Part shown: one piece after another, positions 11,118 to 56,265 of the stretch
Numbering within the stretch: position 1 is the first letter of the stretch
How the letters are laid out: each line of letters starts with the position of its first letter
DNA from: Acidocella aquatica
GTDB taxonomy: Bacteria > Pseudomonadota > Alphaproteobacteria > Acetobacterales > Acetobacteraceae
Direction of reading: 5' to 3'
NCBI RefSeq assembly: GCF_030160635.1
Contig: NZ_BSOS01000039.1
Span: forward strand, 1 to 64,000
Length of the DNA: 64,000 nt
Notes under the pieces: generated by a model
Databases searched by the model: none
Seen by the model: the letters and a program-made list of their open reading frames with translations, nothing else
What the model was told of the DNA's origin: nothing
Translations under genes and position numbers: made by a program

Positions 11118-11846
11118 ATGAATAAATTGGACAAGTCTGCAAATATGAGTCCCCCCCTCATCGCCGTCCCTTTGCGTGCTGATAAAATAGGTATTTCGAA
11201 GCCGTTTCTCAGCGTTGAGGGCCGGCAAAAACTGGCCCTGATCGCCTCACTCAGCCATTATGACGCTGGCGACATCCTGTTTCACGAAGGCGATCGCGCA
11301 ACCTCCATCCTCAACATCGTGTCCGGCGTCGGCAAATCCTACAGTTTTTTGCCCGATGGCCGGGAGGTCATCCAGGCATTTTTATTCCCCAACGACCTGA
11401 TAGGTCCCCTGGATGGCGATTATTTCGTCAACACCGTCAAGGCGATCACCCCGCTGGTGGCCTACACCCTGCCGCTCACCGCGCTGGTTCAGTTGCTACA
11501 GTCAGACCCCAACCTGCAGTGGCAATTTCTCACCAAGGCGTGCCATGAGTTGCGTCTGGCGCAGCAGCACGCCATCGCCTTGTCGCAGAACAGCGCCAAG
11601 CAGCGTCTGCTGATGCTGCTCAACCTGCTACGGCTGCACAATGAGCCGCGCGGCGCGAATGCGAGCCAGATCCATCTGCCGATGAGCCGTGCGGATATCG
11701 CAGACTATACCGGGCTGGCGGTTGAGACCGTAAGCCGGGGGCTGCATCAGCTCCAACGTGAGGGGATTATCCGGCTTATCAACCAGCAATGTATTGAAAT
11801 TATTGACCAAAAAGTCTTCACGGCGGCGCTGGTCTCGGAAGCCTAG
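11118..11846 (+). CDS. Crp/Fnr-family transcriptional regulator, FixK-like
   Basis: A 242-residue regulator: a cyclic-nucleotide-binding-fold sensor domain (about 28-145), a dimerisation helix (about 145-175) and a winged-helix DNA-binding domain (about 185-225). The recognition helix reads ETVSR (203-207), the signature of the FNR/FixK subgroup that binds TTGAT-N4-ATCAA. The N-terminal cysteine cluster of FNR is absent (only C142 and about C225 occur), so it should not carry an oxygen-sensing Fe-S cluster and more likely acts like FixK, controlled by expression or another signal. Perfect boxes of this type occur elsewhere in the window (30025, 34018, 41490). The region before it is AT-rich and may hold its promoter. 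Confidence 0.87.
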   Translation: MNKLDKSANMSPPLIAVPLRADKIGISKPFLSVEGRQKLALIASLSHYDAGDILFHEGDRATSILNIVSGVGKSYSFLPDGREVIQAFLFPNDLIGPLDGDYFVNTVKAITPLVAYTLPLTALVQLLQSDPNLQWQFLTKACHELRLAQQHAIALSQNSAKQRLLMLLNLLRLHNEPRGANASQIHLPMSRADIADYTGLAVETVSRGLHQLQREGIIRLINQQCIEIIDQKVFTAALVSEA

Positions 11847-28694: not shown

Positions 28695-29351
28695 TCACGC
28701 CACAGGCGTTTGCGCAAACGCCAGCTCGTGCCGCGCGCGCCATTCCGGCGTCACATAATTCACGATCAGCGACCGCCTGACCCCGGTGATCCTGCGCTTG
28801 CGGAACCCGTGCCAGGTATCCTTGCCCGGCACAAAAATCAGCCCGGCATTCGGGTGAAACGGCGCGGTGCCCACATATTCGCCGGGCGCGGCATAAACAT
28901 CGGTGCCCCATTCCTCATCAGCGGGCGGTTCATTCAGATACACCAGCATGGTGAAAAACTTCGCGCCAATGTCTGTATGCGGCTCCAGCCAAAAGCCATC
29001 CGTATCCAGGCAATACTCAATCCGCAGCGAGCTTCCGCCCAGCTCCACGCCGCACACCTGCTCCAGCCGCCCTGTCACCTCCGGGCTTTGCAGCGCCTGC
29101 GCCAGCGCCGCGCACACCGGGTAGCGCGCCTGTTCCTCAACGCCAAAAAACAGCCGCGTGCTGTTATGCGTCTCGCGCCGGCCCAGCGTATCCTCAATTT
29201 GCGGCGGCGCCATCGGCAATGCCGCCACCGCGCCGCACATGCCCTCCGGCAGCACATCCTTCAGCAGCCAATGCCGGTAGGGCACCTCCTCGCGGCGGCT
29301 GGCGCCCAAACTCTCCAGAAACCGCGCCGCGGTGGCCGCCGCGTCAGACAT
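28695..29351 (-). CDS. 2-oxoglutarate/Fe(II)-dependent oxygenase (second of a pair)
   Basis: A 218-residue jelly-roll dioxygenase. Iron ligands are in FWLEPHTDIGAKFF (HxD) and a distal His in GKDTWHGFRKR, with the 2-oxoglutarate-binding Arg in RRSLIVNYV. The layout matches the prolyl-4-hydroxylase-like superfamily (PF13640 type). ATG 29351 overlaps the end of the upstream homologous gene by eight bases, so the pair is co-translated. The target is unknown; such pairs modify proteins or envelope sugars and need O2, which makes the FNR-type box upstream notable. Confidence 0.85.
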   Translation of the reverse strand: MSDAAATAARFLESLGASRREEVPYRHWLLKDVLPEGMCGAVAALPMAPPQIEDTLGRRETHNSTRLFFGVEEQARYPVCAALAQALQSPEVTGRLEQVCGVELGGSSLRIEYCLDTDGFWLEPHTDIGAKFFTMLVYLNEPPADEEWGTDVYAAPGEYVGTAPFHPNAGLIFVPGKDTWHGFRKRRITGVRRSLIVNYVTPEWRARHELAFAQTPVA

Positions 29352-29967
29352 AATTGAGCACTTTCTTTGCCTGCGCCGAGATTTTATGCCGCATGATCTC
29401 GCGTTGCGCGGCAAAGCCGTTGGCCATCCAGTTGATCATCACATAGCGCCGCACCCCCACATAAGGCTCATGCCCATGGAAGGATTTGTCCGACCGGCGG
29501 AACGCCACCAGCGTGCCCATGTCGGGCGGCACCTCGGCGATGATGTCGTTCAGATCATCGGGTCCGCGCAGCAGCCGCAGCCGCCCCCCGTCGGCTTCCC
29601 AATCCTCGTTGAAATATAGCAGCGCGGTCACCAGCTTGGCCTCGCTATCGGTATGGATCCGCCCGTCCTTCTCCTGGCAGCGCCCGCGCAGCGTCACCAT
29701 GGTCGGCTGGCCGATCAGGTCCAGGCCGAATTTCTCGCCAAAAGCCTTCGCCACCGCAGGGCTGGTCAGCTCCTCGATCAGCGCCCGGAAGTTCGGGCCG
29801 AACTGCGTGGCCTCCACCGGCAGCAGCCCCGGATACGCGATATCGGGGAAATCGCGCATAATTTCGGGCGCGGCCTCATGGCGTATGAAATTTTTCGCCA
29901 CCAGATATTTAAATGGTTCGTTCGTCAGCGCGGCCGCGCGAAAAGCCTCAAGATCAAGCAGTGCCAT
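29344..29967 (-). CDS. 2-oxoglutarate/Fe(II)-dependent oxygenase (first of a pair)
   Basis: A 207-residue dioxygenase with HxD in GRIHTDSEAKLVTALLYFN, a Gly-rich GGRLRLL strand, the distal His in SFHGHEPYVG and the 2-oxoglutarate Arg in RRYVMINW. ATG 29967 is chosen because GGTGGTAAC precedes it and the predicted protein then starts with MALLDLEAF; the upstream frame has no ribosome site. It shares the fold with the next gene but little sequence outside the active site. An FNR/FixK box lies about 60 bases upstream, between it and the divergent PilZ gene. Confidence 0.86.
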   Translation of the reverse strand: MALLDLEAFRAAALTNEPFKYLVAKNFIRHEAAPEIMRDFPDIAYPGLLPVEATQFGPNFRALIEELTSPAVAKAFGEKFGLDLIGQPTMVTLRGRCQEKDGRIHTDSEAKLVTALLYFNEDWEADGGRLRLLRGPDDLNDIIAEVPPDMGTLVAFRRSDKSFHGHEPYVGVRRYVMINWMANGFAAQREIMRHKISAQAKKVLNYV

Positions 29968-30024
29968 ATTGTTACCACCGGGGTTGTATCCCGCCCCGGA
30001 TAGCAAATCGCCCGCCCCGCGCAA

Positions 30025-30038
30025 TTGATGTGGATCAA
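30025..30038. promoter_or_regulatory. FNR/FixK box between the oxygenase pair and the PilZ gene
   Basis: TTGAT-GTGG-ATCAA is a perfect FNR/FixK palindrome. It sits 58 bases before the oxygenase start (minus) and 87 bases before the PilZ start (plus). No -10 hexamer is at the ideal 32-base distance on either side, so which gene it serves, and whether it activates or represses, is open. Confidence 0.7.
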
Positions 30039-30124
30039 GCCCGCCCCACCCCCGCCTGTTCGGCGGATATTAACGTATGCGCGTCATAACGGGGCATCCA
30101 ACAATATGCGGAAGGCCAACTTAC

Positions 30125-33309: not shown

Positions 33310-33834
33310 CTATCCGGCTTTAACTTCAATCTTCTTGCTGTTGCTTTGCGCGGCAGGGGTTTTGGGCAGCGTAACGGTTAGTACACCCTTGGCGATATGC
33401 GCCGAGATCTTGTCGCGGTCCACGCCATCGGGCAAATACAAGCTCCGCGCGAAAGCGCCGTATGAACGCTCCGAGAGGTAGTAATTCTTCTCCTTCCGCT
33501 CGGTTTCCTGCTGCTTCTCTCCTTTAATGTTGAGGATCGAGCCGTCGACGGACACATCTACATCTTTGTCTTCCAGTCCGGGCAGTTCCGCGGTGATCGT
33601 ATAGGCGCTGCCGTCTTCGATAACGTCCATCGAGGGCGCCAAAGTGCCCGTGGAGGAGAAGAACGGCGCGAAAACCCCTGTGTCCGCGCTTGGAAAAAAC
33701 GAAAACCTGCCGAAACCGGGCGAAAAACGATCGAATAGATGATCGACCTCGTTCCGCAAAGCCGTCCACACATCCGTGCGGCCAGATTTTGCCGCCTCGG
33801 TGGATTTCTTTACCTCGACTTGCTTGTTAGCCAT
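33310..33834 (-). CDS. Small heat-shock protein (Hsp20/alpha-crystallin)
   Basis: A 174-residue ATP-independent holdase. The alpha-crystallin domain (about 68-165) runs from SMDVIEDGSAYTITAELPG to the C-terminal GVLTVTLPK, with the conserved NIKGEKQQE and the A-x-x-x-n-G-V-L motif (AHIAKGVLTVTLP). A charged C-terminal tail follows. ATG 33834 is six bases from GGAGGA; an ATG two codons earlier is too close to it. A long leader (about 150 bases) and a perfect FNR/FixK box centred near -41.5 of a TAATTA hexamer suggest expression under low oxygen. It is divergent from the arginine operon. Confidence 0.93.
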   Translation of the reverse strand: MANKQVEVKKSTEAAKSGRTDVWTALRNEVDHLFDRFSPGFGRFSFFPSADTGVFAPFFSSTGTLAPSMDVIEDGSAYTITAELPGLEDKDVDVSVDGSILNIKGEKQQETERKEKNYYLSERSYGAFARSLYLPDGVDRDKISAHIAKGVLTVTLPKTPAAQSNSKKIEVKAG

Positions 33835-33997
33835 GATCATTCCTCCATTCCATGAAATAAAAATCAGAAATCACGACACTTTCCAGCGGGCGCGCAAAGC
33901 GCAACGCCGCCACCACACCTGACTGATTTGAACACTTAAAGGAAAAATCCACGGACATTCGTTCCGCCGGACCCCGTTCATGCGGGGGGTAATTAGC

Positions 33998-34244: not shown

Positions 34245-35741
34245 GTGAGCCAGTCTTTTTCCAGTCAGACTTTTCCCAAATCGAGTCAGGGAGCGGAAAA
34301 CGCTGCCAGCCAGCCAGAAAGCCGGAAACTCGGGGTCATTTTGCTCAGCGGCGTTGTCGTTGGTTCGATGATCGGCGGCGGCGCATTCAACCTCCCCGCG
34401 AACATGGCCAGCGGCGCCGGGTTGGTGGCCATTGGCATCGCCTGGATTATCACATTTGCCGGAATGTATTTTCTTTCTAACAGCTTCCGGATTTTGGCTG
34501 ACCAGCGCCCAGATCTGAAGGCCGGCATCTACTCCTATGCGCAAGCCGGATTCGGCCCCTTCGCCGGCTTCCAAATGGCGTGGGGTTACTGGCTCAGCTC
34601 GGTATCCGGCAATGTCGCCTTTGCCGTTCTGGTCATGCAAATTCTCGGTTATTTTTTTCCTGTGTTCGGAAATGGCCAGAACTGGCCTTCCATTATCGGC
34701 GCATCGGCGCTGATCTGGGTCATGTGCGCGATCGTGCTCTCGGGTGTAAAACGCACGGCCATGCTCAATGTGATGGCAAGTTTCCTTAACATCATCACGA
34801 TCAGTTTCGCATTGCTGGTCATGGCATTCTACGCAACCGGGGGGCATTTCAGCTTTGACATCTGGGGGCAGCAGAATCATCTCGGCAGCCTGTTCACGCA
34901 GGTTAAAAGCACCATGCTGGTCACACTCTGGGTATTTATCGGCATCGAGGCCGCGGTTGTGGTCTCCGACCGTGCGCGCAAAATGTCTGATGTCGGGCCA
35001 GCGACGTTTATCGGCCTGGGGGTTTGCACATTGCTCTATGCGATGTTGTCCATCCTCCCCTTCGGCATCCTGCATCAGGGCGATCTTGCCGGGTTGGCCA
35101 ATCCCTCCGCGGCCTATGTGCTCGCCGCCGCCGTGGGCAAATGGGGCGCGGTGTTCGTAAACATGGCGCTGCTGGTCTCCGTGCTCAGCTGCTGGCTCGC
35201 CTGGACCATTCTGATCGCGGAACTGCCGCATGAAGGCGCCAAAGGTGGCGTATTCCCAAAATTTCTGGCACGTGAAAATCATTTTCACGCGGCGGCGCCC
35301 TCGCTGGTTATTTCAAGCCTGATGATGCAGGCAACGTTATTCATCGTTCTGTTCGCGCATAATGCGTGGATTTGGCTGATCTCCGTGACAGGTGTGATGA
35401 TTCTGCCACCCTACTACGCCAGCGCGCTGTTCCTGCTGTTATACGCCTCACACCCTGAATATGTGGCGACGCATTCGCAAAGCCGCATGACCGCGCAGAT
35501 CACCGGGTTGCTGGGCGCTATCTATGCCGCCTGGCTGCTCTATGCCGCCGGACCACAGTTTTTGCTTCTCTCCACCATTGTCTTTGCTGTGGGCGTGCCG
35601 GTGTTCTGGTACGCCAGACGCGAACATACGCCGCAAGAACCGGTGTTTTCCAAAATGGAGACGGTCGCGGTTACCGTACTTCTGGTAGCGGCCGTGGCCG
35701 CGGTTGCATTGTTCGCCAATGGTGTGGTGGGCATTGCATGA
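34245..35741 (+). CDS. arcD: Arginine/ornithine antiporter (ArcD-type, APC superfamily)
   Basis: A 498-residue transporter with about twelve helices. It has GSMIGGGAFNLPANMASGAG at the first helix, the APC substrate-binding Gly-rich loop, then YSYAQAGFGPFAGFQMAWGY and VFIGIEAAVVVSDRAR, all typical of the ArcD/basic amino acid antiporter branch. It should import arginine in exchange for ornithine, or for putrescine, given the decarboxylase downstream. It starts at GTG 34245 with AAGGAGG seven bases upstream. It is the first gene of the arginine operon. Confidence 0.88.
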   Translation: MSQSFSSQTFPKSSQGAENAASQPESRKLGVILLSGVVVGSMIGGGAFNLPANMASGAGLVAIGIAWIITFAGMYFLSNSFRILADQRPDLKAGIYSYAQAGFGPFAGFQMAWGYWLSSVSGNVAFAVLVMQILGYFFPVFGNGQNWPSIIGASALIWVMCAIVLSGVKRTAMLNVMASFLNIITISFALLVMAFYATGGHFSFDIWGQQNHLGSLFTQVKSTMLVTLWVFIGIEAAVVVSDRARKMSDVGPATFIGLGVCTLLYAMLSILPFGILHQGDLAGLANPSAAYVLAAAVGKWGAVFVNMALLVSVLSCWLAWTILIAELPHEGAKGGVFPKFLARENHFHAAAPSLVISSLMMQATLFIVLFAHNAWIWLISVTGVMILPPYYASALFLLLYASHPEYVATHSQSRMTAQITGLLGAIYAAWLLYAAGPQFLLLSTIVFAVGVPVFWYARREHTPQEPVFSKMETVAVTVLLVAAVAAVALFANGVVGIA

Positions 35742-35776
35742 AATTTTTAATGAGGCTTGCGACCTGGAGGTTCTGA

Positions 35777-38155
35777 ATGTCCTTTGAAACGCGCCTGCGC
35801 ATACTTGTCTGCAGCCGGATTCTAAAAACCGAATTCCAGGAAGCGGTGCATCTGAGGGAAATTTTAGGAGAGCTAAAAAAACTTGGTTATGCGGTGGTGG
35901 AGACATACTCGATTGCAGATGCCTCCACCGCGATCTATGCCGATGCCGCGCTAGGCTGTCTCCTGCTCGAATGGGGCGAGGGTGACTGGCGCAAGGAAAT
36001 GGACGCGCTTATCAGGCTCGCACAGGCGCGTGGCCTTGAGGCGCCAGTGTTTTTGCTGGTCGGCCGGCAGTTGCTGGAGGATGTGCCGATTGATGTCATG
36101 AACCATGTGAACGGATGCATATACCCGACTGAGGACATCCCCGATTTCGTGGCCAAAAATCTTAGCAGCCATGTAAAGATTTATGCAGAAACACTGAAGA
36201 CACCATTTTTTGGCGCCATGCTCGAATATGCCGATGCGGGGAATCACATGTGGACCTGCCCGGGACATAATGGCGGGATCTTCCATTGGAAGAGTTCCAT
36301 CGGCCGGTTGTTCGCCGAGCATATGGGGGAAGCAGTTTTCCGCAGCGATCTTGATAATTCATCGGTGGAGCTTGGAGATCTGCTGATTCCCGAAGGTCCG
36401 GCAGCGGTCGCGCAGAAAGAGGCCGCAAAGATATTTGGCGCCGAGCGAACTTATTTTGTGTTGAACGGCACATCGGCTTCCAATAAAATTGCCCTCGGCG
36501 CCATTGTCGCACAAGGCGATCTTGTACTGTTTGATCGTAACAATCATAAATCAGCCCATCATGGTGCGCTGGTCCTTGCGGGCGGCATCCCTGTTTATCT
36601 GGAGACGGAACGCAATCATCATGGTCTGATGGGACCTATCGACTACAACGCGCTGGACGAAACGGTGATCCGTGAAAAGATTAAAACGCATCCTCTGATT
36701 ACCGATGAACTGGCATGGCTACGCAAAAAACCCTTCCGCGCCGCAATTATAAACCAATGCACGTATGACGGAACAATCTACAATGTGCACGCAATTTATG
36801 AGAAATTGAGTCCGCTGTGCGATTACATCCTGTTCGATGAGGCCTGGGGTGGATTCATGAAGTTTCACCCCCTGTTCCAGGGGCGTTTTGCCATGGGATT
36901 AAAAAACATGGGCCCGGAGGATGCCGCGGTCATTGCCACACAATCCACGCATAAGCAGCTTGCCGGTTTCTCCCAGGCATCGCAGATTCATGTCAGAGAC
37001 TCCCACGCGAAAACGCAGAAGCGTCATGTACCGCACCAGCGCTTTAATGATTCATTTATGATGCATTCTTCAACATCTCCATTTTATCCATTGTTTGCCT
37101 CGCTTGACGTTGGGGCACAAATGATGAAGGGCCGCGCGGGAGAGGTGCTCTGGGATGACTGCATCCGCATGGGTATCAAACTACGCAAAAAAATCCGCGC
37201 GCTCGCGCATGAGTTTGCCGCAACGGCGACGGTTGATGAATTCAAATGGTTTTTTGATCCGTTTGTGCCGGATTTTGTCGAATTTGAAGATAAACATGGC
37301 ACGCGCCAGTTGCTGCGGTGGGAGAGTGTGCCGACGGACCGTCTGGCAATTGATTCACAATGCTGGGATATGACGCCGCGGGCGGCATGGCACGGTTTTC
37401 CGCATATGGTCTCCGGTTATGTGATGACCGATCCAAACAAGCTGACGTTGCTGACACCTGGAATTTCATCGGTGACCGGCGAATACGAGGCGCACGGCGT
37501 TCCCGCCGCCATCGTTGCGCAATATTTGCGGGCAAATAAAATCGTGGCTGAGAAGCATGATTTTAACAGTCTTCTTTTTCTGTTGACCCCCGGCATGGAA
37601 GCGGGAAAAGCTGGGACCTTACTAAGTGCGCTCGTCAGTTTTAAAAAATTGCATGATACAAACGCTGATATGTTCAAAGTTATCCCAGAATTCGCGGCGC
37701 GTTATGGTGCGCGGTACGCAGGTATCGGGCTTTATGATTTTTGCCAGGAGATGCATGATTTTTACCGGGAGCATAATGTTGCCACGTTGCAAAAGGCAAA
37801 ATTCAGGCTCGAGCATCTTCCTGCCATCGCCATGAGTCCACAAGCCGCATCACAAAAATTCATCCGTAACGAGGTTGAATATCTCCCGATTTCCGGGATC
37901 AAGGGTCGCATCGCGGCAACCCTGGCCGTGGCTTACCCGCCGGGCGTCGGCATGATTGTTCCAGGCGAACGCTACGATGAACGTGCGCAACCGGTGCTGG
38001 ATTATCTGGCAATGCTTGAAAAAGCTGCGAATCTGTTTCCAGGATTCGAAAATGAAATTCAAGGATTCTACCGCGAGATAGGTGAGGACGGACAAATTTG
38101 TTACTACACCTATGTCGTTGACGAAACGCAGAGCGATCAGGACCATGGCACATGA
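35777..38155 (+). CDS. Ornithine decarboxylase (SpeC/SpeF-type, PLP fold type I)
   Basis: A 792-residue Orn/Lys/Arg decarboxylase with an N-terminal wing domain (about 1-130), a PLP core and a C-terminal domain. [14 protein letters not shown] and [19 protein letters not shown] match ornithine decarboxylases better than AdiA, whose equivalent segment reads differently. The PLP-binding lysine is in [15 protein letters not shown] (about K393). It would convert ornithine to putrescine and CO2, consuming a proton. A GGAGG site precedes ATG 35777, and its stop overlaps the arcA start as ATGA. Lysine or arginine as substrate cannot be fully excluded. The codon usage is AT-richer than in the housekeeping genes. 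Confidence 0.85.
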
Positions 38156-39378
38156 ACCCAACATTGGGCGTATATTCTGAAGTAGGTATTCTGCGCGAGG
38201 TTCTGGTACATCGCCCAGATTTAAGCCTGACCCGGCTGACACCAGGCAACTGCCATGAATTGTTGTTCGATGATGTTATATGGGTAAAAAAAGCCAGGCA
38301 GGAGCATGATGCTTTTGTCGATACACTGCGTGATCGTAATGTTGTGGTGCATGAATTCGGCGCGCTTTTAACGGAAACACTGGCCGATGTAGCCGCCCGC
38401 GCCTGGCTGCTGGATCGCCGGGTAGACGTAACAAATCTGGGCTATGGCACCTCGGGAGAGGTGCGTGCGTGGCTGGATGAACTTCCAGCGGCGCAACTCG
38501 CCGCATATTTGGTCGGCGGCATAGCACGTGGAGAACTTCCCTTCACGCCAAAAGGCCTTTTCGCTCTCACACGCGCGGAGCATGAATTCATCTTGCCGCC
38601 CTTGCCCAATCAGTTGTTCACGCGTGACAGTTCCTGCTGGGTAGGCAAGGGCGTGTTCATCAACCCCATGTACTGGCCGGCGCGGCGGCTTGAGGCCGTC
38701 AATCTGGCGGCGGTGTACCGCTTCCATCCACGCTTTGCGGGGAAGGATTTCCATCGCTACGTGGATGCCTCTGAGGAATATCTTGGTAGCATGAGCGTGG
38801 AGGGTGGCGATGTGATGCCGCTTGGCAATGGCGTTGTGCTGATCGGCATGGGTGAGCGCAGCACGCCGCAGGCGGTAACTGAATATGCCAGCCGGCTGTT
38901 CAGCCATGGTGGCGCCTCCCGCGTTGTGGCGGGGCTCATGCCGCGTGAGCGCGGCAGCATGCATCTGGATACAGTGTTCTCCTTCTGCGACCGCGACCTG
39001 GTAACGATCTTTCCTGATGTGGTTGACCATATGAGGGCATTTTCACTCTACCCAGACACAACGTCCACAGGGCTGCGCGCGGTGCCGGAGACCGCGAATT
39101 TTGTTGATGTCGTGGCTGAGGCGATCGGCGTTAAAAATCTGCGCCGCATCCCGACCGGCGGAGATTCTTTCGAGGCGGAAAGAGAACAATGGGATGACGG
39201 CAATAACGTGCTGGCTGTGGCGCCCGGCGTGGTGATCGGTTACGATCGTAATGTTTATACCAATACCGTTCTACGTAAAGCGGGAATTGAGGTGATTACC
39301 ATCGAAGGCTCTGAGCTTGGCCGGGGGCGTGGCGGCGGGCATTGCATGAGCTGCCCGCTCAGCCGTGATGCAATATAG
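38152..39378 (+). CDS. arcA: Arginine deiminase
   Basis: A 408-residue enzyme that hydrolyses arginine to citrulline and ammonia. The expected landmarks are present: [23 protein letters not shown] (with the catalytic His), [20 protein letters not shown], and the nucleophile C398 in [13 protein letters not shown]. Full length suggests an active enzyme. It is translationally coupled to the decarboxylase. It supplies citrulline for ArcB and ammonia that buffers the cytoplasm in acid. In ordinary ADI operons arcA directly follows arcD; here the decarboxylase lies in between. Confidence 0.96.
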
Positions 39379-39488
39379 CCCGCGTGGATTTTGTATGGAT
39401 TTGTTGTGTTGACTGAAGAGCGGTTCAGTGGCTGGGCGGTCGGTTGGGTGGTTCAACCTCACGTCTGTTTCTGGTGGAGGTGATGAAA

Positions 39489-40487
39489 ATGGCAATCAAT
39501 TTACATGGGCGAAGCATTCTGGCGCTGGAGGATTTCACGTCTGCGGAGATGCGTTTTTTGTTGGACATGGCAAAGGAGTTGAAATCCGCCAAGCGCGGTG
39601 GATTTGAGCGCCAGCGGCTGTCGGGAAAAAATATCGTCCTGATTTTTGAGAAGGATTCCACCCGCACGCGCAGCGGGTTTGAAGTGGCGGCCTACGACCA
39701 GGGTGCGCATGTTACCTACATGGGGCCAAGCGGCAGCCATATCGGCCAATCTGAAACCGTGAAGGACACCGCGCGGGTTTTGGGCCGGATGTATGATGCC
39801 ATCGAGTTTCGCGGATTTGCGCAGGCCGATGTTGAGAGCCTCGCGCGTCACGCCGGTGTTCCAGTCTACAACGGGTTGACCGATGAGTCGCATCCGACAC
39901 AGGTTCTGGCTGATTTCATGACAATGCGCGAGTTTACGCACAAGCATCTCTCCGATATCAGTTTTGCCTTCATGGGCGATGGGCGCAATAACATGGCCCG
40001 TTCGCTGGCGGTTGGCGCTGCGAAAATGGGCATGCAATTTACCATTGGCGCACCAAGGGTACTGTGGCCCGGCGCGGGGTTTCAGGAACATGTTTCTAAG
40101 ATCGCCAAAACAACAGGCGCCAGCATAAAGTATGATGATAACGCCGTTGCCGCCGTGGCAGGAGCGGATTTCGTCTATACCGATGTCTGGCTCTCGATGG
40201 GAGAAGATCCGGCGCAATGGGGTGAGCGTATCAAGCTCCTGCTCCCCTACCAGGTGAATGCCGCGCTGATGCGCGCGGCAGGCAATCCATTTGTGAAGTT
40301 CATGCATTGCCTTCCATCCTTCCATAATGCCGATACAAAAATGGGCAAGGATATTGAAATCCGTTACGGTGTACCCGCGATGGAAGTCAGCGACGAGGTA
40401 TTTGAATCGGCGGCCTCCATTGTTTTTGACCAGGCGGAAAACCGGATGCACTCAATTAAAGCGATACTGATCGCAACCTTGGGGTAG
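39489..40487 (+). CDS. arcB: Catabolic ornithine carbamoyltransferase
   Basis: A 332-residue carbamoyltransferase run in the phosphorolytic direction, splitting citrulline into ornithine and carbamoyl phosphate. The carbamoyl-phosphate site is [16 protein letters not shown] (about 57), with [12 protein letters not shown] in the middle and HCLPSFHN near 273. The FHN after HCLP and the YDQG segment are those of catabolic OTCases and differ from the ArgF copy at 55.3 kb. ATG 39489 is eight bases from GGAGG; an ATG two codons earlier is too near it. It follows arcA after 110 bases and precedes arcC by four. Confidence 0.94.
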
Positions 40488-40491
40488 AAAA

Positions 40492-41493
40492 ATGAGAATT
40501 GTCGTGGCGCTTGGCGGTAATGCTTTGCTCCCCAGGGGTGAAGTTTTATCTATGGAAAATCAGCAGAAAGCCATTTTGAGTGCCGCGCGCGCTTTGGCTG
40601 ATGCGGTTTATGCGGGGCATCATCTGGTGATAACCCATGGCAATGGTCCGCAGGTGGGGTTGCTGGCGTTGCAGTCCCAGGCAGGCCCCGCGGGAGGCGC
40701 CATGCCGCTGGATGTTTTGGGCGCGCAAAGCGAGGGGTGGATCGGCTATGTGCTGGAGCTGGCGTTAAGCAACGCTTTTCCGGAAGGGGCCGCGGTGGTG
40801 ACTGTGCTGACGCAGACCTTGGTGGATGGGAATGATCCGGCGTTTGCCAGGCCGGTGAAGCCGATCGGCCCGGTCTATGAGGAGGAGGCCGCGCAGCGCC
40901 TGCAAGCCCTGCAAAAATGGCCAATGGTGAAGGACGGTAAAGGCTGGCGGCGGGTTGTGGCCTCTCCCAAACCGCTCGGGATCGTGGAAATTCTTTCCAT
41001 CAAGAGGCTGATCAACAGTGGCGTGACGGTGATTTGCGCTGGCGGCGGGGGCATTCCGGTCCGCGCCGGGGCTGATGGTAAACTTGTGGGGGTGGAGGCT
41101 GTGGTCGACAAGGATTTGACCGGCGCGTTGCTGGCGCGCCAGGCCGAAGCGGATTTTTTCGTGATGCTGACCGATGTGCCCGGGGTTTATCTGGATTACG
41201 GCGGCAAGGAGCAACGGATTATCGCCAGCGGCGGCCCGAAGGCCATGCTGGCGCATGCCGCGGCGTTTCAGGCCGGATCGATGGGGCCGAAGGTTGAGGC
41301 GGCGTGTGCGTTTGTGCAGGAGACGGGTCAACCGGCCGCGATCGGCGCGCTGGCGGATTTGACGGAAATTATCGCCGGGCGGCGCGGCACGCAGATCTCG
41401 CCCCAGGGCGGCAAGATCAGCTTCCATTATCCAGACGCCGTGGAACCGCGCTCCACCAACGCGGCGGGAGGTTTTGCGAAGCTATATTTTTGA
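40492..41493 (+). CDS. arcC: Carbamate kinase
   Basis: A 333-residue amino-acid-kinase-family enzyme that makes ATP from carbamoyl phosphate and ADP, releasing ammonia and CO2. Landmarks are VVALGGNALLPRGE at the start, THGNGPQVGLLALQ, ICAGGGGIPVRAG and VDKDLTGALLARQ, and LTDVPGVYLDYG. It is about 20 residues longer than typical ArcC because of a C-terminal tail after HYPDAVEPRS. Its last codons overlap a perfect FNR/FixK box that seems to drive the next genes. Confidence 0.95.
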   Translation: MRIVVALGGNALLPRGEVLSMENQQKAILSAARALADAVYAGHHLVITHGNGPQVGLLALQSQAGPAGGAMPLDVLGAQSEGWIGYVLELALSNAFPEGAAVVTVLTQTLVDGNDPAFARPVKPIGPVYEEEAAQRLQALQKWPMVKDGKGWRRVVASPKPLGIVEILSIKRLINSGVTVICAGGGGIPVRAGADGKLVGVEAVVDKDLTGALLARQAEADFFVMLTDVPGVYLDYGGKEQRIIASGGPKAMLAHAAAFQAGSMGPKVEAACAFVQETGQPAAIGALADLTEIIAGRRGTQISPQGGKISFHYPDAVEPRSTNAAGGFAKLYF

Positions 41494-41503
41494 TCGAAAT
41501 CAA
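41490..41503 (+). promoter_or_regulatory. FNR/FixK box before the CBS-FtsH-kinase genes
   Basis: TTGAT-CGAA-ATCAA is a perfect palindrome overlapping the arcC stop. A GATTTT hexamer at 41526-41531 lies 32 bases from its centre, as in a class II FNR promoter. The predicted start near 41538 leaves a leader of about 19 bases to GTG 41557. Confidence 0.75.
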
Positions 41504-41556
41504 TGCACTTGCGCCGTGATGACGCGATTTTGCCTCCCTTAAGTGGAGGATCAGAC

Positions 41557-42033
41557 GTGACGCGGAAAATAACATTGGCGGATACGGCAGCCGAGATCAT
41601 GACCCGCGATGTGATTACCGCCAGCCCGGCTGACACGGCTGCGGGAATTGCGGCAAAGTTGAGTGAGCATGGCATAAGCGCCGTGCCGGTGGTGGATGCC
41701 GAGGGCAGGCTGGCGGGGATTGTGAGCGAGGGGGATCTGATGCGCTCCTTTGGCCTGCGAAACGCTATGCACCGTGCCTGGTGGCTGGATATTCTGGCCG
41801 AAGGGGAGGAGCTTGCGCCGGAATTTCTGGACTACATAAGGGTGGATAACCGCCGGGTGAAAGACCTGATGACCCGTGATGTTATCACCGTGGCGGAGAC
41901 CACCGGCATCGATGATATCGCTGATCTGCTGACGCGGCGCGGGATTAAGCGCGTGCCGGTGCTGCGTGGCGGGCGGGTGGTCGGCATTGTAAGCCGGGCG
42001 GATATTGTTCGCGTGCTGGCTGGCGGGGGATGA
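41557..42033 (+). CDS. CBS-domain-pair protein
   Basis: A 158-residue protein made of two CBS repeats: MTRDVITASPADTAAGIA...GIVSEGDLMR (about 10-65) and MTRDVITVAETTGIDDIA...GIVSRADIVR (about 103-156). A tandem CBS pair binds adenine nucleotides and senses energy state. GTG 41557 is used because GGAGGA lies six bases upstream. It opens a segment with FtsH and a kinase fusion, behind its own FNR/FixK box. The layout resembles stand-alone hypoxia-induced CBS proteins such as mycobacterial Hrp1; this is an analogy of architecture, not proof of shared function. Confidence 0.9.
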   Translation: MTRKITLADTAAEIMTRDVITASPADTAAGIAAKLSEHGISAVPVVDAEGRLAGIVSEGDLMRSFGLRNAMHRAWWLDILAEGEELAPEFLDYIRVDNRRVKDLMTRDVITVAETTGIDDIADLLTRRGIKRVPVLRGGRVVGIVSRADIVRVLAGGG

Positions 42034-42118
42034 TCGGGCGCGGGCTGTTTGCTAAACAGGCTCGGCGGCATAGAGTTGCGGCGGTAAGGTTTACATACCG
42101 GAAGCCGGGAGGGCCGTG

Positions 42119-43960
42119 ATGGCAAAAAAGCGTGAATCATTGTGGACTTCCGGGCTTATATGGCTTGTGTTGTTTGTGCCGCTGCTGATCCTGTCGATAT
42201 TTAACCAGGAAAATCTGCCAAAGGTACAAACCATTCCCTACAGCCAGTTTGAAACGCTGTTGCAGGCGGGGCAGGTGGATAATCTTGTGGTGGGAACCAA
42301 CGAGATCACCGGCACGTTGAAAAATGTTGCAGCCGGGCAACCCGCGCAATTCACGACTGACCGCGTGGACCCAGCGCTGGCGCAGGATCTGGCGAAAGCC
42401 AAGGTGACCTTTGCCGGGGAGCCGGCGCCAGGGTGGTTTGCCTCGCTCCTGGGGTGGGTGGCGCCGATGCTGTTGTTCGGGGTGCTTTGGTTCGTGCTGC
42501 TGGGCAGCCGCATGGGCGGGGCGGGCGGGGGGATGCTCGCTGTCGGCAAAAGCCGGGCGCGGGTTTATGCGGAAAGCGCCGTGCCGGTGCGCTTCAAGGA
42601 TGTTGCCGGGGTGGACGAGGCCAAGGCGGAGTTGAAGGAGGTTGTGGATTTTCTGAAAGACCCTGGAGCCTACGGGCGGCTGGGGGCGCATGTGCCCAAA
42701 GGTGTGTTGCTGGTGGGGCCGCCGGGGACGGGCAAGACATTGCTGGCGCGGGCCGTGGCGGGGGAGGCGGGGGTGGCGTTTTTTTCCATCTCCGGCTCTG
42801 AATTCGTGGAATTGTTCGTGGGCGTGGGGGCGGCGCGGGTGCGCGATTTATTCGTGCAGGCGCGCCAGCAGGCACCTGCGATTATTTTTATTGATGAGCT
42901 GGATTCATTGGGGCGCGCGCGCAACGGCATGTTGCCCGGTGGCAGCAATGACGAGAAGGAGCAAACGCTTAACCAGCTCTTGGCGGAGATGGACGGATTC
43001 GACCCTTCGAGCGGCGTGGTGCTGCTGGCGGCGACCAACCGGCCGGAAATTCTGGACCCGGCGCTGCTGCGCGCGGGCCGGTTTGACCGGCAGGTGCTGG
43101 TGGACCGGCCAGACCGTAAGGGGCGGGTGGATATCCTGAAGCTGCATATCCAGAAGGTGAAGCTGGAGGCTGATGTTTCCATTGAGGAGATCGCCGCGAT
43201 GACGCCGGGGTTCACCGGTGCTGATTTGGCGAATCTGGTGAATGAGGCAGCACTTTTGGCGACGCGGCGCAATGCCGCGGCGGTGACGCTGGAGGATTTC
43301 AACCAGGCGGTGGAACGGATCATCGCGGGGCTGGAGAAGCATAACCGGCTGCTGGCGCCAAAGGAGCGCGCGGTGGTGGCGCATCATGAAATGGGCCACG
43401 CGCTGGTTGCGATGGCGTTGCCCGATGTCGACAAGGTGCAGAAAATTTCGATTATTCCGCATGGCATCGCGGCACTTGGCTACACCATGCAGCGCCCGGT
43501 GGAGGACAGGTTTCTGATGGGGCGCCTGGAACTGATCAACCGCATGACCGTGCTGATGGGCGGGCGGGCGGCGGAGACGCTGCTGTTTCCCGATGTTTCA
43601 ACCGGGGCGGCGGATGATTTGATGCGCGCGACGGAGATTGCGCGCTCCATGGTGGTGCGCTTTGGCATGGATGAGAAGCTGGGGCAGGTGACGTTTGAGC
43701 CTGAGCAGTCGCGCCTGCTGGGCGGCGGCGGGGTGGATTGGCGGCCGCGCCAGTATAGCGAGACGACGGCGGCGGCGATTGATGCGGCGATCCGTGGGTT
43801 GGTGGAGACGGCGTTTGCGCGGGCCAAGGTGATATTGCAGGAAAACATGGCGTTGTTGCGTGAATCGGCGGCCGGGCTGCTGGAGGCGGAGAGTTTTTCC
43901 GGTGGGAAGCTCGATGAACTGGCCAGGCGGGTGAAGCCGTGGCGCGAAGAGAATGGCTGA
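42119..43960 (+). CDS. ftsH: ATP-dependent zinc metalloprotease FtsH
   Basis: A 613-residue membrane AAA+ protease. Two membrane helices (about 9-27 and 100-123) flank a short periplasmic domain. The ATPase has Walker A GPPGTGKT (about 199), the pore loop [14 protein letters not shown] and the arginine-finger RAGRFDRQ. The protease domain has the zinc motif HEMGH (423-427) and [10 protein letters not shown] with the third ligand. ATG 42119 follows GGGAGGG. The canonical ftsH neighbours of alphaproteobacteria (tilS, folP, glmM) are absent, so this is probably an accessory FtsH tied to the stress operon. Confidence 0.94.
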
Positions 43961-52977: not shown

Positions 52978-54098
52978 GGCGCGACACCACCACGGCGCCA
53001 TGCGCTTGCCAAGAGCAGCAGCAGCACGAGCGGTGCGCCGTGGGCATATTGCGGCGCCCAGGGCAGCAGGCCGGGGCCGAACCAGGCGAGGAAGAGGAGA
53101 ACGGGCTCAAAAGGGGCGAAGCCGGTGGCCATGCGTGTTTCCACGATCAGCGCCACGGCCAGGGCGGCGGCCAGCAGGTCGTAGTCATGCAGATAGGGGC
53201 TGGCGAGCGCGGAGAGGATGAGCAGCGCCGGGATGGAGCGGGTTTGCGTGGCGGCGGCGATGGCGGCCAGGGTAACGGCGGCCTGGATGAGCAGGGCCGG
53301 GTGCAGGCCGAGCGGGCGGGCCAGGGCGAATACGCTGATCAGCCCGCCGGAGAATTCGTGCGGCTGGCCGGTGAGCAGCACGTTGCTCATGGCCGGGCTG
53401 GTGAAGTGGATGAAGCCGTTCCAGGCGGCGGGGCCGAAGGCGTAGAGCGAGGCGGCGGCGAGCAGCGTGGCGGCCAGGGCGGCGTAGGCGAAGGCGGCGG
53501 GCGCGCGGCGCAGCAAATAGAGCGGCAAAACGAGGCCAAGCTGGGGTTTGACGGTGGCCAGGCCGATGAGGATGCCGCCCAGGCGCGGGCGGGTCTGCGT
53601 GAGCAACAGGCCGCCGCCGATGAGTGCCGTGAGCAGGGCGGCGTTTTGGTGTTCCAGCACACTTTCCAGACTGGCCGGGGCGAGCAGGACGGCGGCGGTG
53701 AACCACCAGGATTTTTTCGCGAGGCGCAGCGCCAGGGCAAGGAGAATGAGCGAGGACGCATCAAAGGCGAACACGGCGTGCCAGGGGGAGAGCCAGTCAA
53801 ACGCGGCGGCGAGCAGCAGATAGTTGGGGGGGTAGCTCCAAAGGTGATAGGGCAGATGGCCGTAGATGCCTTCGAGAAAACTCTGATAGGCGGTGTGGTC
53901 AAAAAGGATGGGGAGCTGGTGGTTGAGGGCGAGGAAGCCGCCGGCCCAGAAATCCAGACCATCGCGCAGGGCCTTGCCGGCGAGGCCGTGGCGCTGGCCC
54001 CAGAGGATGGCAAATGCCTCAAAACAGGAGGGGAGCGCGCAAAGCGCAACCACCAGGCCGAGTTTGAGGCGGGGCGATGTTTGACTATTCTGGTTCAT
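52884..54098 (-). CDS. GT87 (DUF2029) membrane glycosyltransferase
   Basis: A 404-residue polytopic protein with the same landmarks as the other GT87 proteins here: LWSYPPNYLLLAAAFDW, VKPQLGLVLPLYLLRRAP and SPYLHDYDLLAAAL. The ATG at 54098 follows the divergent argD promoter region; the longer frame to 54137 lacks support. The last 30 or so residues (a Pro/Ser/Ala-rich tail after WRRGGV) are translated from DNA shared with the start of aroE, so this end may be a run-on extension. The sugar acceptor is unknown. Confidence 0.8.
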   Translation of the reverse strand: MNQNSQTSPRLKLGLVVALCALPSCFEAFAILWGQRHGLAGKALRDGLDFWAGGFLALNHQLPILFDHTAYQSFLEGIYGHLPYHLWSYPPNYLLLAAAFDWLSPWHAVFAFDASSLILLALALRLAKKSWWFTAAVLLAPASLESVLEHQNAALLTALIGGGLLLTQTRPRLGGILIGLATVKPQLGLVLPLYLLRRAPAAFAYAALAATLLAAASLYAFGPAAWNGFIHFTSPAMSNVLLTGQPHEFSGGLISVFALARPLGLHPALLIQAAVTLAAIAAATQTRSIPALLILSALASPYLHDYDLLAAALAVALIVETRMATGFAPFEPVLLFLAWFGPGLLPWAPQYAHGAPLVLLLLLASAWRRGGVAPCDSSQAPPVSPASSAGQCPTPAPPGSTAPG

Positions 54099-54139
54099 TT
54101 GCGCAGTATTCCGTGCTTTCCCGTCTAGAAAGCACAATC

Positions 54140-55333
54140 ATGATCGCCGCGCTAATGCCGAACTATAACCGTGCCAACATTGCCTTTTCCTATGGCGAGG
54201 GGGCTTGGTTGTTTGATGAGCGTGGCCGCAAATTTCTCGATTTTGGGGCGGGAATCGCCACTTCCTCGCTGGGGCACGGGCATCCGCATCTGGTGAACGC
54301 GATCGCTGAACAGGCCGCGAAGGTGATCCATGTCTCCAACCTGTACCTGGTGCCGGGGGCGGAATTGCTGGCGAACCGGCTGGTGGCGGCGAGTTTCGCC
54401 GATTCGGTATTTTTCTGTAACTCCGGCGCCGAGGCCAATGAGGGGCTGGTGAAGGCCATGCGCAAAACCTGCGCCGATGCCGGGCAGCCGGAACGCTACC
54501 GGGTGATCTGTTTTGAGGGCGCGTTCCACGGACGCACGCTGGCGATGATCGCGGCGACCGGGAATGCGAAATATCTGGCCGGATTCGGGCCGCTGGTGGA
54601 CGGGTTTGACCATGTTCCCTTCGGCGACATCGCGGCGGTGCGCGCCGCCATCGGCCCGCAAACTGCGGGGGTGTTGATCGAGCCGGTGCAGGGCGAGGGC
54701 GGGGTGCGGCCGGCTTCGGTGGAATTTTTGCGGGCGTTGCGGGCGCTGTGCGATGAGCATGGCATTTTGCTCGGGCTGGACGAGGTGCAGTGCGGCATGG
54801 GGCGGACGGGGAGGCTCTTCGCGCATGAATGGGCGGGGATTGAGCCGGATGTGATGTCGGCGGCCAAGGGGATCGGCGGCGGGTTCCCGATGGGGGCGGT
54901 GCTGGCCAAGGAGCATGTCGCCAGGGCGCTGGTGCCCGGCAGCCACGGTACGACATTCGGCGGCAGCCCGCTGGCGGCGGCGGCGGGCAATGCGGTGCTG
55001 GATGTTGTTTTGGCGCCGGGGTTTCTGGAGGGGGTGGAGGCAACCGGGCGGTATTTGGGCGGGGAGCTGAGCGGATTGTGCGCGCGCTTCCCCGGCGTGT
55101 TTGAGGATGTGCGCGGGGTGGGGCTGCTGCGCGGGCTGAAATGCGTGGTGGCGAACACGGATGTGCAGGCGGCGGCGATGGAGGAGGGCTTGCTCACCGT
55201 GGCGGCTGGCGAGAATGTGTTGCGGCTGATCCCGCCGTTGATTGTGGGAACGGCGGAATGCGATGCGGCGGTGGCGCTGCTGGAGCGGACGGCGCTGCGG
55301 TGTTCGGCTGGGGTGGAGGTTGGCGTGAAATGA
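54140..55333 (+). CDS. argD: Acetylornithine aminotransferase
   Basis: A 397-residue class III PLP aminotransferase of arginine synthesis. FLDFGAGIATSSLGHGHP opens the core, FFCNSGAEANEGLVKAMRK and CFEGAFHGRTLAMIAATG follow, and DEVQCGMGRTGRLFAHE precedes the PLP lysine in SAAKGIGGGFPMG (about K242). ATG 54140 matches family starts; 54155 is an alternative. It overlaps argF by four bases, forming the argD-argF pair found across alphaproteobacteria. N-succinyldiaminopimelate transaminase activity is also possible. Confidence 0.93.
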   Translation: MIAALMPNYNRANIAFSYGEGAWLFDERGRKFLDFGAGIATSSLGHGHPHLVNAIAEQAAKVIHVSNLYLVPGAELLANRLVAASFADSVFFCNSGAEANEGLVKAMRKTCADAGQPERYRVICFEGAFHGRTLAMIAATGNAKYLAGFGPLVDGFDHVPFGDIAAVRAAIGPQTAGVLIEPVQGEGGVRPASVEFLRALRALCDEHGILLGLDEVQCGMGRTGRLFAHEWAGIEPDVMSAAKGIGGGFPMGAVLAKEHVARALVPGSHGTTFGGSPLAAAAGNAVLDVVLAPGFLEGVEATGRYLGGELSGLCARFPGVFEDVRGVGLLRGLKCVVANTDVQAAAMEEGLLTVAAGENVLRLIPPLIVGTAECDAAVALLERTALRCSAGVEVGVK

Positions 55334-56265
55334 GTGCGCTTTTGGAGTTAAGGGCGAACGGCCCGCGGCATTTTTTGGATTTGAAGGATTTTTCCGGGGC
55401 GGAGCTGCGTGCCCTGCTGGACTCGGCGGCGCGGCTCAAGAGCACACGGCGCAACGGCAAGAAGCCGCTGGCGGGCAAGACGCTGGCGCTGATTTTTGAG
55501 AAACCCTCGACGCGGACGCGGGTTTCCTTCGAGGTGGCGATGCGCGAGCTGGGCGGGGATGTTATTGTGCTGTCCTCGCGCGATATGCAGATCGGCCGGG
55601 GCGAGACGATTGCCGATACCGCGCATGTGCTCTCGCGTTATGTGGACGGGGTGATGCTGCGCACCGACCGCGCGGCCAAGCTGCATGAGTTTGCCCGGCA
55701 TGCCAGCGTGCCCATTATCAACGGGCTGACCGAGCTTTCGCACCCGTGCCAGATCATGGCGGATATCATGACCTTCGAGGAGCATCGCGGGCCGATTGCC
55801 GGGCAGGTGGTGGCCTGGGTGGGCGATGGGAATAATGTCGCGGTTTCGATGATCGAGGCGGCGGCGCGTTTTGGCTTCACGCTGCGGCTGGCCTGCCCGG
55901 CGGGGTATTGGCCCAACCCGGACGTGATGGACTGGGCGCGCGACGAGAAGGCGGATGTGCGCGTGAGCATCGACCCGGAGGACGCGGTGGAGGGGGCTGC
56001 CTGCGTGGTGACGGATACCTGGCTGAGCATGGCCGATTCCGAGGACGAGGCGGCGGCCCGCGCGGCGGCGTTCGCGCCGTATCAGGTGACGGCGGAGCTG
56101 ATGGAGCAGGCGGCGGAGGGGGCGATTTTCATGCATTGCCTGCCCGCTCACCGCAACGAGGAAGTGTCGGCGGCGGTGATCGACGGGCCATGGTCGGTGG
56201 TGTTTGACGAGGCGGAGAACCGGCTGCATGCGCAGAAGGCGATTTTGGCGTGGTGCATGGGCTAG
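55330..56265 (+). CDS. argF: Anabolic ornithine carbamoyltransferase
   Basis: A 311-residue OTCase that makes citrulline for arginine synthesis. The carbamoyl-phosphate loop is STRTRVSFEVAM (about 60), then HPCQIMADIMTFEEH, and the ornithine/catalytic HCLPAHRNEE (Cys about 270). HCLPAHRNEEV is the anabolic form and contrasts with HCLPSFHN in the catabolic ArcB at 39.5 kb. ATG 55330 overlaps the argD stop. Long upstream frames reach into argD and are not used. Confidence 0.96.
   Translation: MSALLELRANGPRHFLDLKDFSGAELRALLDSAARLKSTRRNGKKPLAGKTLALIFEKPSTRTRVSFEVAMRELGGDVIVLSSRDMQIGRGETIADTAHVLSRYVDGVMLRTDRAAKLHEFARHASVPIINGLTELSHPCQIMADIMTFEEHRGPIAGQVVAWVGDGNNVAVSMIEAAARFGFTLRLACPAGYWPNPDVMDWARDEKADVRVSIDPEDAVEGAACVVTDTWLSMADSEDEAAARAAAFAPYQVTAELMEQAAEGAIFMHCLPAHRNEEVSAAVIDGPWSVVFDEAENRLHAQKAILAWCMG

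Follow-up and report, generated by a model that had tools for sequence, protein, structure and literature searches.

An arginine deiminase operon with a built-in ornithine-type decarboxylase in Acidocella aquatica: a putative low-oxygen route from arginine to putrescine

Related systems and the proposed role of the Acidocella operon

The arginine deiminase pathway splits arginine into citrulline and ammonia, turns citrulline into ornithine and carbamoyl phosphate, and draws ATP, CO2 and a second ammonia from the latter. Here we describe what appears to be a recurring variant of this pathway, which usually ends at ornithine: a five-gene operon at positions 34245-41493 of the first 64,000 nucleotides of contig NZ_BSOS01000039.1 of Acidocella aquatica (the 64-kb window, part of a 4.03 Mb genome, G000, in 137 contigs), in which open reading frames for an antiporter, a decarboxylase, ArcA, ArcB and ArcC follow each other on the forward strand. 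Each half of the route is already known. The locus resembles the arcDABC operon in the arcA-arcB-arcC order, the antiporter gene in first place and an FNR-type box upstream, but it differs in the decarboxylase gene set between antiporter and arcA and in an antiporter that belongs to another clade and scores below the ArcD cut-off. It shares with SpeF-PotE of E. coli an AAT-fold ornithine-type decarboxylase adjoining an APC antiporter gene, whereas here ArcA and ArcB would supply the ornithine from within the cell, and the antiporter is ArcD-like, not PotE. The overall conversion, arginine to ornithine to putrescine, is that of Lactobacillus rossiae D87, where it is tied to acid stress, but in that strain odc and potE stand as a pair flanked by putative terminators of their own and are not in an arc operon, and separate gene sets likewise lead from arginine to putrescine in lactic acid bacteria (PMC5838238). 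In the pSymA region of Sinorhizobium meliloti and in its relative, genome G612, genes for an ornithine-type decarboxylase and for basic amino acid antiporters lie no more than ~10 kb from arcABC; by contrast with the window, the pSymA decarboxylases are encoded on the opposite strand and are less similar (48% and 34%), and a PotE-like gene and a second decarboxylase are present. S. meliloti arcABC and adiC SMa0684 are described as symbiosis genes, and its OdcA and OdcB have been assayed (PMC7268258), these two enzymes not being tied here to genes of the pSymA arc region. Finally, a plasmid set of Lichenicola cladoniae has an antiporter of the same clade and the same putrescine end product, but its route runs through agmatine and N-carbamoylputrescine, with no ATP step in the set. 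In the accessible parts of the open-access literature we found no description of antiporter-odc-arcABC as one operon, and in the main text of a survey of 124 arc clusters (PMC5300872) the word decarboxylase does not occur.

We consider it moderately probable that the locus is a low-oxygen operon that would take arginine to ornithine with a gain of ATP and then to putrescine, arginine/putrescine exchange being the probable transport step. The antiporter would import arginine; ArcA, ArcB and ArcC would convert it to ornithine, two ammonia, CO2 and one ATP; the decarboxylase would consume a proton in turning ornithine into putrescine and CO2; and putrescine would leave the cell, most likely through the operon antiporter. 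Exchange of arginine (+1) inward for putrescine (+2) outward would move one net positive charge out and add to the proton motive force, to which arginine/ornithine exchange, by contrast, adds nothing. This charge argument is known for ornithine/putrescine exchange and is carried over here to a presumed arginine/putrescine exchange, and the benefit of exporting charge in an acidophile with an inside-positive potential is not obvious. If correct, a single operon would save energy twice, through substrate-level ATP and charge export, while removing one proton and releasing two ammonia per arginine. Plain arginine deiminase operons provide neighbours with ornithine; the variant would provide putrescine, and would gain more energy and more alkali per arginine, which would suit low-oxygen, acidic habitats.

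The earlier note on this DNA had placed the decarboxylase gene between antiporter and arcA within five genes of one strand, and both the open reading frames and the Pfam and NCBIfam profile scans, which identified all five gene families, bear this out. ArcA, ArcB and ArcC, the gene set of the arginine deiminase pathway, are encoded together, and deiminase, transcarbamoylase and kinase activities, with the ATP yield, would be expected of them. The described ATGA coupling is present as a 4-nucleotide overlap between the decarboxylase stop and the ArcA start; the claim of short gaps or overlaps throughout holds for the spacings between antiporter and decarboxylase (35 nucleotides) and between ArcB and ArcC (4 nucleotides), both read from the sequence, but fails between ArcA and ArcB, where the sole sizeable gap of the operon spans 104 nucleotides. 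Co-transcription of the five genes seems likely. Chance adjacency was rejected, since the order recurs in other genomes. The merged pathway itself, offered in the note as conjecture, gains support from the decarboxylase tree, diagnostic alignment columns, gene linkage, ArcA lineages and FNR-type boxes.

Recurrence of the operon and its antiporter clade

A survey of genomes for antiporter-odc-arcABC synteny, as the earlier note had proposed, recovered the arrangement elsewhere. An annotated example lies on plasmid pSBC2-4 of Caballeronia sp. SBC2, and an Acidocella metagenome-assembled genome (L003) carries antiporter, decarboxylase, ArcA and ArcB up to a contig end after ArcB. The window's own family (f1, 200 genomes) is taken as one of the Acetobacterales, the order to which NCBI assigns Acidocella, as a member of the Acidocellaceae. 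In f1, 56 genomes matched in the ArcA search, eight with full-length proteins and the remainder with weak partial matches; an ornithine-type decarboxylase gene stands directly upstream in two of the eight (G000 and G153), classical antiporters in three, one lies between two other antiporters and two have neither. A second family (f216, 249 genomes) was taken as Burkholderiaceae, since each of the three trees places Caballeronia SBC2 within its rows; ArcA matched in 34 of its genomes, and at 30 loci examined the gene directly 5' of arcA was an ornithine-type decarboxylase in seven and an antiporter in 23, one further decarboxylase-upstream locus having been found through the antiporter. As a side observation, a SpeF-PotE pair sits beside an ArcB gene in G673 (L200), another ornithine-handling neighbourhood.

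Linkage to arc genes is not a general property of the decarboxylase family. The proposition that every close relative is arc-linked was rejected: at the 30 f1 loci of at least 55% identity (L010-L039; flanks of ~1.5 kb, shorter at contig ends, a partial match in G105 excluded), an adjacent arcA occurs in two and an antiporter in three, the window included. Neither arcA nor a clade antiporter was seen in the flanks of 11 loci at this identity level from a class sample of 385 genomes (L040-L050, L050 being partial; L041 has a permease of 26% identity in its flank) or of nine new loci from a phylum sample of 398 genomes (L069-L077), and no antiporter lies in the 3.9 kb upstream of a relative at a contig end (L004, 62% over 430 residues).

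The antiporter was called ArcD-type in the earlier note, a label that stands for the subfamily (TIGR00905, 481.4 bits against a cut-off of 409.05) and fails for the ArcD equivalog (TIGR03810, 458.5 against 591); the AdiC, CadB and PotE models also remain under their cut-offs, and AdiC is a distant relative. In a tree of 43 rows (from which the AdiC-like genes of L178 and L201 are absent, their rows having duplicated PotE-like rows and been removed) the window protein falls in a 20-row clade with support of 100/98, apart from a separate clade of 13 antiporters from plain arcDABC operons. Within the 20-row clade an ornithine-type decarboxylase gene is adjacent in 13 cases, arc genes without it in four, the agmatine-route genes PvlArgDC-AguB-AguA in one and no recognised related gene in two. 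Arc genes also accompany 12 of the 13 decarboxylase-adjacent copies, among them L003, with its contig end, and a set split over two contigs in G1092. The Lichenicola protein, 72% identical, is the one that heads the agmatine-route set; on that plasmid (L155, 4047-13140) the antiporter, a pyruvoyl-dependent arginine decarboxylase, an N-carbamoylputrescine amidase and an agmatine deiminase stand in a row, and the other strand holds an AdiA-side decarboxylase with a GNAT gene and a porin-like gene. In L165 (7095-8422) and L173 (3412-4784) the antiporter gene is immediately preceded by divergently oriented open reading frames that, by eye, resemble the epsilon and gamma subunits of ATP synthase.

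Lasting co-travel of the five genes would lead one to expect the ArcA rows in one clade, like the antiporters. The group tested, fixed before the tree was inspected, comprised the rows of operons with a clade antiporter together with the separate arcABC sets of G096 and G068 (16 of 43 rows), and its monophyly was rejected in the approximately unbiased (AU) test (p-AU 0.00009), as it was again with L152 included (17 of 43 rows, p-AU 0.0005) and without it (16 of 42, p-AU 0.0001). The f1 operons have ArcA copies that group with those of plain arcD operons in their own family, namely with two of the three. Vertical inheritance of one five-gene operon was thus rejected, as the ArcA partners are not one clade. 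Given that the antiporters are one, it is probable that two or more separate events brought the antiporter-decarboxylase block next to arcABC, or else that arcABC was replaced alongside the block; a pathway put together repeatedly from the same two gene blocks would be the strongest indirect argument for a joint function of the two halves.

The antiporter is probably either an arginine/putrescine or a broad arginine/ornithine/putrescine exchanger, with putrescine export and charge movement as its predicted contribution. ArcD1 of Lactococcus lactis has only mM affinity for putrescine (PMC5300872); a variant that exports putrescine would therefore require a modified antiporter, and the antiporter does fall in a clade of its own. 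It is tempting to propose, at a confidence slightly short of even, that the members of this ArcD-like clade exchange arginine(+1) for putrescine(+2) electrogenically, accompany either an ornithine decarboxylase or an agmatine route, and have been joined to arcABC at least twice; it would be a testable clade with a likely new substrate pair.

Several genomes weigh against so tight an association. In the thirteenth decarboxylase-adjacent copy (G096) the antiporter-decarboxylase pair and arcABC are on different contigs, as are antiporter and arcABC in G068, whose decarboxylases reach only 38-41% identity; a suspected putrescine-utilisation oxidoreductase beside the lone antiporter of G068 gave no family match. 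The operon was found in none of the three other genomes of the window's genus within the sample, and no related gene was recognised beside the clade antiporters of L156 and L202. In four cases (L165, L166, L198 and L199) arcA immediately follows the clade antiporter, without an intervening decarboxylase gene. L198 and L199 are more distant members (55%) with ArcA and ArcC, and L165 and L166 are each sister to a decarboxylase-bearing copy, so that these two look like losses of the decarboxylase gene; a decarboxylase of 46% identity lies elsewhere in the genome of L166 (G1139), and only one of 39% in G1050. AdiA-type genes also occur nearby, ~2 kb away and on the opposite strand in Lichenicola (the AdiA-side gene) and directly 5' of antiporter-decarboxylase-arcABC, all on one strand, in G1123 (L203), which makes agmatine another candidate substrate.

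The four antiporters directly before arcA also favour a rather unlikely alternative, that the antiporter keeps arginine/ornithine exchange and the decarboxylase diverts part of the ornithine to polyamine at low oxygen. Antiporter and ArcD belong to the same subfamily, and of 27 positions selected from earlier AdiC studies, 18 have the same commonest residue in the clade and in classical ArcD; the clade differs from ArcD at the other nine, and these positions alone did not separate putrescine from ornithine exchange. What argues against retained ornithine exchange is that the antiporter clade accompanies the decarboxylase while the ArcA partners vary, that the Lichenicola antiporter heads a putrescine-ending set making no ornithine, and that the genome already encodes a separate decarboxylase of the AR fold, whose best PDB relatives are lysine/ornithine decarboxylases (5GJM, E 2.6e-59), though it stays under every NCBIfam cut-off shown. 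The window also contains argD and argF (54077-56265). The cell thus need not rely on the operon for biosynthetic putrescine or for a biosynthetic ornithine carbamoyltransferase; a purely biosynthetic role of the operon is less likely.

Substrate type of the decarboxylase

The decarboxylase scores above the cut-offs of PF03709, PF01276 and PF03711 (N-terminal, major and C-terminal OKR_DC domains), which places it in the AAT-fold superfamily, and the SpeC/SpeF-like motif of 14 residues reported earlier is found in the protein. Its closest PDB structure is the ornithine decarboxylase 1ORD (559.6 bits, E 1e-166), followed by the variant 1C4K. A tree of 86 rows unites the window enzyme with the other arc-linked enzymes and 45 stand-alone relatives, 56 rows in all, and joins them with 19 rows holding SpeC, SpeF and an S. 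meliloti relative, AdiA, CadA and LdcC remaining outside; the decarboxylase is therefore on the SpeC/SpeF side in a tree obtained by a quick method with Shimodaira-Hasegawa-like approximate likelihood ratio (SH-aLRT) support only and long-branch warnings. The length and no-stop filter excluded L169, L008, L013, L034, L042, L050 and L055 from it, and L004, L011 and L012 (the latter two being genes of L163 and L167) are also absent. The stand-alone rows, that is, those with neither arcA nor a clade antiporter within the flank examined, form a clade apart from the arc-linked ones; two of them, L005 and L006, each adjoin a GNAT acetyltransferase gene.

Residue comparisons point the same way. Fifteen SpeC/SpeF-type rows agree fully at 135 diagnostic columns where AdiA and CadA/LdcC both have other residues; there the window carries the ornithine-type residue in 64, that of AdiA in 21 and that of CadA/LdcC in 21, 14 of these being common to AdiA and CadA/LdcC. 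The pocket stretch around E592 reads EKHDFNS, compared with EKCDLNS in SpeC/SpeF, TRTTDFQ in AdiA and EKTGPYN in CadA/LdcC. By our own count from the structure alignment E592 corresponds to E532 of 1ORD, which we take to be the ligand of the side-chain amine. The lysine that binds pyridoxal phosphate (PLP), K393, is kept in all 86 rows. We infer that the enzyme is on the ornithine side, with ornithine as its presumed specific substrate.

On the other hand, none of the listed NCBIfam ornithine decarboxylase models is reached (748.9 against a cut-off of 794 for NF010092; 737 against 1310 for TIGR04301), PDB chains named as arginine decarboxylases (6Q6I and AdiA chains; 517.5 and 444-455 bits) outscore the further ornithine decarboxylase chains (388-393), and 43 of the 135 diagnostic columns show the residue of none of these types. 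Moreover, the window alone has proline at position 205, where the 84 other rows of the 85 aligned, AdiA and CadA included, have histidine; impaired activity is conceivable because of this substitution of a near-universal residue, the window enzyme departing at three of 123 highly conserved columns in all.

The superfamily holds ornithine, lysine and arginine decarboxylase activities (PMC8503589), and it might be argued that the enzyme uses arginine or lysine, two parallel acid-stress systems, one AdiA/AdiC-like and the other the arginine deiminase pathway, sharing one antiporter. The presence of arginine decarboxylases among the better PDB matches, the distant kinship of the antiporter with AdiC and the AdiA-type gene of G1123 would fit; however, that gene is additional to the ornithine type and not a substitute for it, and the tree and the ornithine-type diagnostic columns make this explanation improbable. 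The narrower identification as an AdiA-like arginine decarboxylase was also judged unlikely from these columns and from the glutamate found where AdiA has threonine. That two exchange cycles operate, with an unlinked putrescine exporter or with the operon antiporter alternating arginine/ornithine and ornithine/putrescine exchange, is very improbable: S. meliloti and G612 do have a PotE-like gene beside the ornithine decarboxylase and a separate AdiC-like gene near arcABC, but the window operon has a single antiporter gene, a count that covers the operon only, no genome-wide search for PotE-like genes having been made.

A second AAT-fold basic amino acid decarboxylase is encoded elsewhere in the genome (L205, 6757-8973 of G000:C65); lysine and arginine models score it alike, under their cut-offs, and its gene follows open reading frames that by eye resemble an amino acid ABC importer.

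Putative oxygen control and features around the operon

Arginine fermentation in Pseudomonas is under ANR control (PMC3759415). FNR-type boxes with at most one mismatch lie 5' of nine of the 13 antiporter-decarboxylase copies (six exact), whereas random pieces, some of which may contain true boxes, had one in 8 of 300 and 18 of 420 cases; they also precede three of the five other clade antiporters and all three plain arcD operons. Genome-wide, 24 exact boxes were counted as against one for the reversed control, and three of the 24 are in the window. Besides the three boxes of Table 1, an exact box outside the operon (30025-30038) lies between a 2OG-Fe(II) oxygenase gene (29344-30024, reverse strand) and an open reading frame at 30077. 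An FNR-like protein of the genome (L206) shows by eye three N-terminal cysteines and a fourth further on, and scores under the NCBIfam FnrL, FixK and Fnr cut-offs. From such sites we would predict that an FNR/FixK-type regulator probably switches the operon on. Two counts temper this prediction: shuffled windows had on average 1.16 boxes of at most one mismatch and reached the observed four in five of 100 shuffles, and no box with at most one mismatch was found at four of the 13 copies (L003, L169, L203 and L204). The window also encodes, at 11118-11846, a FixK-like Crp/FNR regulator without an N-terminal cysteine cluster (top model FixK, under cut-off), a possible second reader of the boxes.

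Table 1. Genes of the operon and nearby FNR-type boxes, in window positions.
Feature	Position	Strand	Basis
Antiporter, APC superfamily, basic amino acid/polyamine	34245..35741	+	TIGR00905 above cut-off, TIGR03810 below; trees
AAT-fold (OKR_DC) decarboxylase, ornithine type by sequence, 792 aa	35777..38155	+	PLP lysine K393 (alignment), E592
ArcA, arginine deiminase	38152..39378	+	PF02274; NF002381 above cut-off; TIGR01078 487.2 against 489.1, just under
ArcB, ornithine carbamoyltransferase, catabolic by context	39483..40487 (ATG start 39483 or 39489)	+	OTCace domains; TIGR00658 above cut-off; top-scoring NF003286 506.6 against 515, just under
ArcC, carbamate kinase	40492..41493	+	AA_kinase; TIGR00746 and NF009008 above cut-off
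FNR-type box TTGATTTCGATCAA	34018..34031		exact match; between divergent hsp20 gene and antiporter gene
FNR-type box ATGATCGATATCAA	34156..34169		one mismatch; centre ~82 nucleotides 5' of antiporter start
FNR-type box TTGATCGAAATCAA	41490..41503		overlaps ArcC stop; 5' of CBS-domain gene

Scans of the operon region for promoters (three found, 6.4 in shuffles) and terminators (11 found, 10.3 in shuffles, standard deviation 3.1) gave no excess and were left unused. The operon is flanked by genes for an Hsp20 protein (33310-33840) and for a CBS-domain protein and FtsH (41503-43960), the likely start of the CBS-domain gene being, by eye, a GTG at 41557. CBS proteins also lie near arc genes in L175 and L176, so that, together with these flanks, a shared stress island is possible.

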